Of a DNA stretch of 64,000 bases, positions 768-46,266 are shown piece by piece. The position numbers and the translations under genes are program-made. The notes below the pieces were generated by a model. It searched no databases. It was not told the origin of the DNA and saw only the letters and a program-made list of their open reading frames with translations. The stretch comes from Catenuloplanes niger. GTDB lineage: Bacteria > Actinomycetota > Actinomycetes > Mycobacteriales > Micromonosporaceae. Every line of letters starts with the position of its first letter. Within the stretch, counting starts at the first letter, position 1. Where the stretch lies: positions 8,976,501 through 9,040,500 of the forward strand of contig NZ_JAVDYC010000001.1 in NCBI RefSeq assembly GCF_031458255.1, written 5' to 3'.

Positions 768-2144
768 TCATGACCGCTGTCGCAGGGTGTGCGAGACTCC
801 GCCGGTGCGGGCGCCGGGGTCCAGCACCGTCCAGTCCTTGCACATGCCGGCCATCATCACCGGCAGGTCCGGGAACCGGCCGGCGTCGGCCTGGACGGTG
901 ATGCTCAGCCGGCCGGCGTACGACATCGCCAGAACGGACACGGCCAGGTTCCCCGCCAGGCTCCCGACCGGCACGATGTCCTGGACCGGCAAACCGAGCA
1001 CCCGGACCGGCTCCGCGGGACCGATCAGGTCGCTCTCCACCAGGTTGACCAGGTGCTGGTGCAGCGCGAACCAGCGAGCCACACCGAGCCGGGACAGCAG
1101 CGTCAGCAGCCGGTTGCCGGCGTCGGCCGCCTGCTCGCGCTTGGCCCGGCCGGTCTCGCGGGCGATCTCCCGCAGCCGGGCACCCGGATCCGGCTCACAG
1201 ACCGGAAGCCGCACCAGGAACCCGCCGGCCCGGTTGCCGGTCGCCGGCCCGGCCGCGTTCCCCGGGCGCAGCGACACCGCGACCGAGGTGTGCAGCCGGA
1301 CACCGTCCACCGGCTCGTGCCGCCCCCGCAACAACGCGCGGAGCCCACCCGTGGCCAGCGCCAGCACGAGATCGTTGATGGTGGCACCGTGCCGGTGCGC
1401 GGCCCGGCGTGCGTCGGCCAGGTCGACCCGCAGCACGGCCAGCCGGTGCTCACGCCCGACCGGCCCGTTCAGCGACGTCCGCGGTGCGCCCCGGGCCCGG
1501 CGAAGGATCCCGGCCGCCGGCCACCGGCCGCCCGGCCACCGTGCCCGGATCCGCCGGCTGCGCGGGTCGTCCCGGATCGGGTTCCGCCGGCACCGTACGT
1601 TGTCCAGGACCACGTCTCGCCACGGCGGCGCGGGTTCCGGCAGCCATGGCGCCGTGGATTCCGGGCCGTTCAGCAGGGCCGAGACCAGCCGGATCGCGCC
1701 GAGGCCGTCGGTCACCACGTGGTGCAGGACGAGGACGACCGCGACGGCCTCGCCGGCCGGCCCGGTGACCAGCCACAGGCGCCACAGCGGATGCGCGCGG
1801 TCCAGCAGCGGCATCATCAGGCGTTCGGTGAGCCGCAGCAACGCCGGTTCGTCACCGGGCGGCGGCGCGGCGACCTGGTGCACGTGCCGCGCGACCGCGA
1901 AGTCCGGGTCGTCGATCCACAGCGGCCGGCCGCCCGGGGACCACGGCCGATGGATGATCTGCCGCAGTCGGGGTGCCGCCGCCAGCCGCCGCTCGACCCG
2001 TGCACGCAGCGCGGCCAGCGGCACGTGGGAGCGCCGGCCCGGGGCCAGCACCGCCAGCGCCGCCATGTGCATCGGCGTCCGTGGCGACTCGACCGCGAGG
2101 TTGAGCAGATCCTCCGCGGTCAGACGCGGATATCGGCTGCTCAT
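768..2144 (-). CDS. WS/DGAT-family acyltransferase
   Basis: Wax ester synthase/acyl-CoA:diacylglycerol acyltransferase family (458 aa, the family's usual length), which transfers acyl groups from acyl-CoA to alcohols or diacylglycerol at the membrane. The active-site motif HHVVTDG is at residues 141-147. The PLDRAHPLW-type segment lies just before it, and the C-terminal conserved ND motif appears as TINDLVLALATGG. The start is ATG (MSSRYPRLTAEDLL). Mycobacterial relatives such as tgs1 are induced in dormancy. Here a weak DosR-like sequence (GGGGCGTGCGGCCC, 2177-2190) lies 33 bases upstream. The actual acceptor alcohol cannot be told from sequence. Confidence 0.9.
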   Translation of the reverse strand: MSSRYPRLTAEDLLNLAVESPRTPMHMAALAVLAPGRRSHVPLAALRARVERRLAAAPRLRQIIHRPWSPGGRPLWIDDPDFAVARHVHQVAAPPPGDEPALLRLTERLMMPLLDRAHPLWRLWLVTGPAGEAVAVVLVLHHVVTDGLGAIRLVSALLNGPESTAPWLPEPAPPWRDVVLDNVRCRRNPIRDDPRSRRIRARWPGGRWPAAGILRRARGAPRTSLNGPVGREHRLAVLRVDLADARRAAHRHGATINDLVLALATGGLRALLRGRHEPVDGVRLHTSVAVSLRPGNAAGPATGNRAGGFLVRLPVCEPDPGARLREIARETGRAKREQAADAGNRLLTLLSRLGVARWFALHQHLVNLVESDLIGPAEPVRVLGLPVQDIVPVGSLAGNLAVSVLAMSYAGRLSITVQADAGRFPDLPVMMAGMCKDWTVLDPGARTGGVSHTLRQRS

Positions 2145-45791: not shown

Positions 45792-45947
45792 TCAGCCGCG
45801 GCAGGTGTTGCCGCAGAACGGCCGCCGCACCGACCGGCCGCACGCGCACAGCGCCATCCGGGACTCCGGGCGCCCACCCCGGTCGACGAGCTGCGGACCG
45901 ACCGTGATGCCGGCCCGGTGGTACGACGTCGGCACCGGGTCAGTCAT
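45792..45947 (-). CDS. Variant CDGSH-type iron-sulfur protein, 51 aa
   Basis: ATG 45947 to TGA 45792. The C-terminal motif ALCACGRSVRRPFCGNTC follows the CDGSH pattern C-x-C-x2-S-x3-P-x-C but the terminal D-G-S-H has become G-N-T-C, so the single His ligand of the 2Fe-2S cluster is replaced by Cys. The start overlaps the GNAT stop by eight bases, so the two are translationally coupled. Small, soluble. CDGSH proteins bind 2Fe-2S and may sense redox; with four Cys this one should have a different potential. Confidence 0.75.
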   Translation of the reverse strand: MTDPVPTSYHRAGITVGPQLVDRGGRPESRMALCACGRSVRRPFCGNTCRG

Positions 45948-46266
45948 CGGTCTCGCCCAGCACGGCCCGCCGCCGCTCGACGGCCCGGGTCAGGTCCTGG
46001 TACTCCGCGTGCGTGCGGATGAACTTCGCGAAGAACGGGCAGGCCGGCACCACCCGCAGCGCCCGGCCACGGACGTCGTCGAGCGCACCGCGGGCAAGGC
46101 GGCTGCCCAGACCGCGTCCCTCGTACTCGACCGCGACCTCGGTGTGGATGAAGACGATGCGCTGCCCTTCCCGGTAGTACACGGCGAAACCGGCGAGGTC
46201 ACCGTCCACTGTGATCTCGTACCGGTGCTGGGCGGGGTTGTCGTACACGCTGATGGTGTCGCTCAT
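45940..46266 (-). CDS. Small GNAT-type N-acetyltransferase
   Basis: A 108-residue protein of the short YjdJ/NATD1-like acetyltransferase family: beta strand RYEITVDGDLAGFAVYY, acetyl-CoA loop VEYEGRGLGSRLARGAL and LRVVPACPFFAKFIRTH. It acetylates an unknown acceptor with acetyl-CoA. ATG 46266 with RBS GGAGAGGAAA. First gene of a two-gene operon with the variant CDGSH protein, a pairing known in actinobacteria. Confidence 0.9.
   Translation of the reverse strand: MSDTISVYDNPAQHRYEITVDGDLAGFAVYYREGQRIVFIHTEVAVEYEGRGLGSRLARGALDDVRGRALRVVPACPFFAKFIRTHAEYQDLTRAVERRRAVLGETDD

Follow-up and report, generated by a model that had tools for sequence, protein, structure and literature searches.

A 51-residue CDGSH-like protein coupled to a GNAT gene is a probable deletion remnant of a Fer4_19-CDGSC protein

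The window analysed here, a stretch of 64,000 nucleotides from the Catenuloplanes niger genome, encodes a 51-residue protein that we consider, with a probability of roughly 0.7, to be the deletion remnant of a longer, GNAT-coupled protein in which a Fer4_19 domain is followed by a CDGSH-type domain with Cys in place of the cluster His (CDGSC). On this reading, the Cys was inherited and the intact relatives of the protein are likely to be redox partners carrying a four-Cys [2Fe-2S] cluster. Descriptions of NEET proteins centre on the single His ligand, and in the excerpts of the literature used here the Cys version appears mainly as a mutant made in the laboratory. Natural proteins with a fixed Cys offer a built-in comparison of what the NEET His is for, and their pairing with a small acetyltransferase, which is also found in E. 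coli yjdI-yjdJ, gives a handle on that gene pair. The window copy matters less in itself, beyond showing that each iron-sulfur half can be lost without the other; the biology worth following is that of the intact relatives.

Results

A sequence-only reading of this DNA had described a CDGSH-like protein with Cys in place of the cluster His, giving no strand. The open reading frame (ORF) is present and runs on the minus strand (Table 1); its translation, from 45947 to 45792, is MTDPVPTSYHRAGITVGPQLVDRGGRPESRMALCACGRSVRRPFCGNTCRG. The CDGSH signature (PF09360) is C-x-C-x2-[ST]-x3-P-x-C-D-G-[SAT]-H. Its first part, C-x-C-x2-S-x3-P-x-C, is present in the 51-residue protein, and D-G-S-H is replaced by G-N-T-C, giving C-x-C-x2-S-x3-P-x-C-G-N-T-C. 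The four Cys (C34-x-C36, C45 and C49) stand at CDGSH spacing, and the C-x3-C spacing at the end of the motif matches the canonical C-x3-H. The codon for the last ligand, TGC at 45803-45801, encodes Cys as had been claimed, and the same Cys is found in the relatives described below. The match to Pfam zf-CDGSH (E 3.2e-6) falls just below the 29.5-bit gathering cut-off; together with the homology to full-length relatives, it bears out the proposed CDGSH ancestry. In the region of the beta-cap, the N-strand RMALC is retained, and the lid-proline stretch reads GPQLV, with Gln at the first hydrophobic place of GP-Phi-x-Phi and the next strand residues absent. Neither the protein nor its locus shows a Fer4_19 domain in a Pfam scan. 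No promoter came up in a sigma-70 scan, and one terminator-like site is on the opposite strand. The structure model of the protein has a pLDDT of 54.5 and another model one of 63.7, neither of them confident.

Table 1. Positions of the 51-residue ORF, its segments and the coupled GNAT gene in the window
Feature	Position	Strand	Evidence or remark
51-residue ORF, probable remnant of a Fer4_19-CDGSC protein	45792..45947	minus	ORF and translation; zf-CDGSH 27.8 bits; homology to relatives of 129-136 residues
Codons 1-16, kept N-terminus (MTDPVPTSYHRAGITV)	45900..45947	minus	83% DNA identity to L007 and to sibling G004
13-codon junction (GPQLVDRGGRPES)	45861..45899	minus	78-85 residues of full-length relatives missing; exact breakpoints not placed
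Codons 30-51, CDGSC segment with four Cys	45795..45860	minus	In DNA, 77-85% identical over 22 codons to each of six full-length relatives
Cys codons of the CDGSC segment	C34 45848-45846; C36 45842-45840; C45 45815-45813; C49 45803-45801	minus	
GNAT gene, 108 residues, PF14542 Acetyltransf_CG (YjdJ-like)	45940..46266	minus	89.3 bits over the whole profile

When 300 genomes of the same family were searched with the 51-residue protein, 46 genomes gave matches at E <= 0.01. The strong matches (E <= 6.2e-7) come from the window itself and from five further genomes (L007-L011), and all five of the latter are full-length proteins ending in CDN[TA]C; among the strong matches in these 300 family genomes, the window copy is the only short form. 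The weaker matches that were read are canonical CDGSH proteins, proteins with another Cys spacing (L013-L015, L019) or proteins without such a motif. The sequences of L008, L009 and L011 are those of records from Actinoplanes solisilvae, Paractinoplanes polyasparticus and Actinoplanes sp. M2I2, and Kutzneria sp. 744 has a full-length protein of the same CDN[TA]C form, which makes six full-length relatives, of 129-136 residues, with the five in the family. A search of genome contigs with the full-length alignment A3 led to 14 loci. Fer4_19 followed by zf-CDGSH, both above the Pfam cut-offs, was found in the three of the six that were scanned, L007, L068 and L069 (the same protein as L008); across the nine full-length relatives scanned, zf-CDGSH scored 33.6 to 58.3 bits and Fer4_19 was present in every one. 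Searches of genome contigs and plasmids returned no named relative of the 51-residue protein itself. The idea of a second full-length copy in the same genome was rejected, as the sole other CDGSH match there is a canonical CDGTH protein and the two Fer4_19 matches (L034, L035) lie elsewhere; L034 is just downstream of an ORF recognised by eye as P450-like.

DNA identity between the window ORF and L007 is 83% over codons 1-16, 17% over the next 18 nt and 85% over codons 30-51, and in all seven sequences compared it falls to 17-28% in the 18 nt after codon 16. With 83% and 85% identity to a full-length relative on either side, the resemblance is not due to chance. Because homology breaks off beyond codon 16 and is picked up again at codon 30, the window copy, which is 83 residues shorter than L007 (51 versus 134), has undergone internal loss. 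The junction could not be placed, since its best DNA match is within the range of shuffled sequence: the best L007 placement of its first 18 nt reaches 67%, against a shuffled median of 61% and a 95% point of 72%. The window copy has lost its Fer4_19 half and the initial strands of the CDGSH domain. It also has Gly instead of the Asp that follows the third Cys, a residue conserved in all 14 full-length rows of A4 but lacking in some His forms of the wider survey. The sequence-only reading missed that this small protein is not complete, being by homology what is left of a Fer4_19-CDGSC protein. Judging from sequence, its Cys is inherited from an intact ancestor, whose relatives carry the same Cys.

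The adjacent same-strand PF14542 gene is one feature of the YjdI-YjdJ type pair; the other, a Fer4_19 partner protein, is absent from this locus. The stop codon of the GNAT gene (TGA, 45942-45940) is contained in ATGACTGA, the start of the 51-codon ORF, and this 8-nt overlap agrees with the translational coupling that had been proposed. The same overlap arrangement, as ATGAGTGA or ATGAGTAG, is seen in L008-L011 and in the sibling genome G004. Relatives of the window GNAT protein in the PDB are 5i0c (YjdJ) and 1r57. A CP[FY] motif is present in 48 of the 58 distinct GNAT ORFs found, and its Cys is a possible contact point.

Parts of this module have been lost one at a time in the siblings and elsewhere. 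Among the five genomes of the genus, none other than the window genome matches the Cys segment at E <= 0.01; all five have a PF14542-like match, with a close one (84% identical to the window protein) only in G004 besides the window. The coupled gene in G004 encodes a 76-residue Fer4_19 protein that ends in the linker before the CDGSC half (L081:1820-2050, plus strand), the reverse of the window. In the 3.2-kb locus of sibling G002 (L141), a Fer4_19 fragment lacks the first Cys pair and there is no GNAT match. L135, L136 and L140 combine Fer4_19 and a GNAT match with no CDGSx motif in frame, and L137 (G093) has Fer4_19 with a GNAT match and a CDGSx motif in another frame. In L007, an intact Fer4_19-CDGSC gene lies behind a GNAT stub (1059-1190, plus strand) of 28% of the model, the last part of the frame.

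Over codons 1-16, the window copy differs from G004 by one synonymous and seven non-synonymous changes (pN/pS 2.4) and has a pN/pS of 2.3 against L007, 1.5 against L008 and 1.6 against L009, compared with 0.52-1.16 in six pairs of intact or sibling copies without the window, in a stretch whose codons are few and loosely conserved in intact copies too. The N-terminus of the window copy is apparently relaxed. For the CDGSC segment, pN/pS between the window and six relatives is 0.20-0.51, within the 0.09-0.66 of intact pairs, and much of this divergence may predate the deletion.

A comparison of His with Cys in GNAT-linked homologues, suggested by the sequence-only reading, was made on 90 distinct proteins (identical ones counted once) with a Fer4_19-like pattern and then a CDGSx motif in one frame. 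Cys forms served as seeds for the searches, the flanks were mostly 1.5 kb and a GNAT match was counted within 900 bp. The 30 proteins with a GNAT match comprise 5 C-x3-C, 23 C-x5-C and 2 His forms, and the 60 without one comprise 5, 13 and 42, respectively; in this Cys-seeded sample, Cys forms are 28/30 with a GNAT gene or stub versus 18/60 without. The GNAT match covers at least 95% of the model in 29 of the 30, and because the remaining one, L007, is a stub, near-complete GNAT genes accompany Cys forms in 27 of 29 cases. The GNAT model found the annotated acetyltransferases of E. coli, Enterococcus and two Deinococcus, loci that are within its own iteration set. Three fetched records, all His forms, were missed by the survey pattern: two from Deinococcus and one from Haladaptatus, the last with no annotated GNAT gene nearby. 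His forms can be GNAT-linked too: on Deinococcus plasmids (L176, L178), a GNAT gene is transcribed divergently from a His-form Fer4_19-CDGSH gene.

With the trait residues left out, a tree was built from 70 of the 90 rows, 62 of which have a single CDGSx motif and 8 a pair of them. On this tree, the His/Cys label requires at least 3 changes and GNAT 11, and there is only one well-supported independent pair. Cys, as opposed to His, marks whole branches of this tree, and the association of Cys with GNAT could be explained by shared descent alone. The raw Fisher p of 5e-9 ignores both the kinship of the rows and the seeding of the searches with Cys forms, and it was set aside for these reasons. 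C-x5-C is the commoner Cys form (36/90; for example CDHSGPC, CDRSGAC and CDNNEAC) and is two residues longer than the CDGSH spacing. Two positions beyond its third Cys, the residue may be H, R, G, L or N, which makes the distal Cys the probable fourth ligand in this form. Carriers of C-x5-C include L013-L015, L019, L036, L038, L071, L072 and most of L145-L174 (L173 is a His form).

Discussion

We propose that the ancestor of the window gene encoded a two-cluster protein, Fer4_19 plus a CDGSH-type domain with Cys for His, and overlapped a PF14542 gene. An in-frame internal deletion would then have produced the 51-residue ORF, with the Cys carried over from the intact ancestor. In the intact relatives, a four-Cys [2Fe-2S] cluster most likely sits beside the Fer4_19 cluster, and these proteins are most likely partners of the GNAT protein in electron transfer or redox chemistry. 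The window ORF is most likely a decaying deletion derivative and at best a minimal four-Cys [2Fe-2S] protein. The ferredoxin-like four-Cys centre foreseen by the sequence-only reading is reasonable for the intact relatives, given the stable, ferredoxin-like cluster reported in excerpts on engineered His-to-Cys NEETs, but own cluster binding by the truncated protein is doubtful, because it has neither the Fer4_19 half nor the initial CDGSH strands and is without the Asp that is constant in 14 relatives. A redox sensor governing acetylation, at which the same reading hinted, is a conjecture.

Several features count against decay. The frame is still open, and the four Cys, the strand preceding them and the coupled start are all retained; a deletion whose length is a multiple of three would also fit selection. 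The 51-residue protein could instead be a functional minimal four-Cys [2Fe-2S] protein that arose by adaptive domain loss, still partners the GNAT protein and perhaps forms a dimer like single-motif CDGSH proteins. The canonical spacing of its Cys, the preserved GNAT overlap, the pN/pS of 0.20-0.51 in the CDGSC segment and a GPxLV stretch that resembles the lid-proline motif of the fold (excerpt of PMC3174974) fit such a protein. We nevertheless think it unlikely: the constant Asp and the first CDGSH strands are gone, the N-terminus looks relaxed, the strong matches in the family hold no second short form, the sibling G004 retained the opposite half, and the structure model, which is of a single chain, is not confident.

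A sequencing or assembly error hiding a full-length gene with His is hardly credible. The sequence does come from one assembly, but a His codon (CAY) is two substitutions from TGC, so a single base error cannot explain the Cys, which recurs in independent genomes; moreover, the frame is open despite the missing stretch, and the genome is one contig and 99.97% complete. Four-Cys sites often bind zinc in general, and the Pfam family is still named a zinc finger, so the Cys form might be a zinc rather than an iron-sulfur site. This seems improbable, as engineered His-to-Cys NEETs, in the excerpts cited below, retain [2Fe-2S] and the partner half, Fer4_19, is named by Pfam as a 4Fe-4S domain. The decaying deletion derivative remains our preferred reading of the window copy. 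A broader proposal is tentative: the Cys proteins (C-x3-C and C-x5-C) may form a natural four-Cys NEET-type branch, fused to Fer4_19 and paired with PF14542, in which the replacement of the labile His by Cys would have made a stable low-potential electron carrier out of a cluster donor or sensor. This carrier would set the acetyltransferase's redox state or activity, and the module would be losing parts singly in the window and its relatives.

Fer4_19 is the later name of DUF1271. The type 7 CISD proteins of subtype DC have DUF1271 and then one CDGSH domain (Lin et al. 2011, excerpt of PMC3174974), which is the domain order of the intact relatives; the relatives differ in having a terminal Cys ligand (C-x3-C or C-x5-C) and often an adjacent GNAT gene, and the window copy differs further in lacking the Fer4_19 half. 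Among CISD types 5 and 6, 17% have one degenerate motif and about half of these have Cys for His (same excerpt). This substitution is also natural, but it affects one of two tandem motifs, whereas here it affects the sole CDGSH-type site. Neither the Fer4_19-CDGSH fusion nor the His-to-Cys change is new, the latter being known from types 5/6 and from engineered NEETs. CDGSH with Fer4_19 is also described in the part of PMC5859297 consulted, and the words 'acetyltransferase', 'GNAT' and 'cysteine' are all absent from the main text of that paper. Our searches of an open-licence library turned up no description of a natural four-Cys, GNAT-linked branch.

Replacing His by Cys in three NEETs gives a stabilisation like that of a ferredoxin cluster (excerpt of PMC6006223), and NEET mutants, not specified in that excerpt, can have potentials near -300 mV, roughly tenfold more negative. 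In H87C mitoNEET, higher temperature is without effect on cluster lability (excerpt of PMC8463382). The crystal structure 6AVJ, identified in a figure legend as the H75C/H113C mutant of human CISD3 (excerpt of PMC10937110), is shown with Fe2S2 clusters. Engineered H87C mitoNEET, H114C NAF-1 and H75C/H113C CISD3 have the same C-x3-C spacing as the window protein and keep [2Fe-2S], with the cluster stabilised in the first two; all three are complete NEET folds.

GNAT is a recurrent neighbour of Fer4_19 and Fer4_19-CDGSx genes. In E. coli yjdI-yjdJ, a PF06902 (Fer4_19) gene adjoins a putative N-acetyltransferase gene, whose product YjdJ has the structure 5i0c; YjdI lacks the CDGSH half, whereas the window gene lacks the Fer4_19 half. 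A single 173-residue ORF (L139:1492-2013, plus strand) fuses Fer4_19 to PF14542 Acetyltransf_CG, which would support a joint function of the YjdI-YjdJ type pair. This fusion, yjdI-yjdJ and the GNAT matches of 30 of the 90 surveyed proteins extend the GNAT link beyond the window, in keeping with the sequence-only reading. On an Enterococcus faecalis plasmid (L179), overlapping genes for a (4Fe-4S)-binding protein and a GNAT protein lie just downstream of a heavy-metal P-type ATPase gene.
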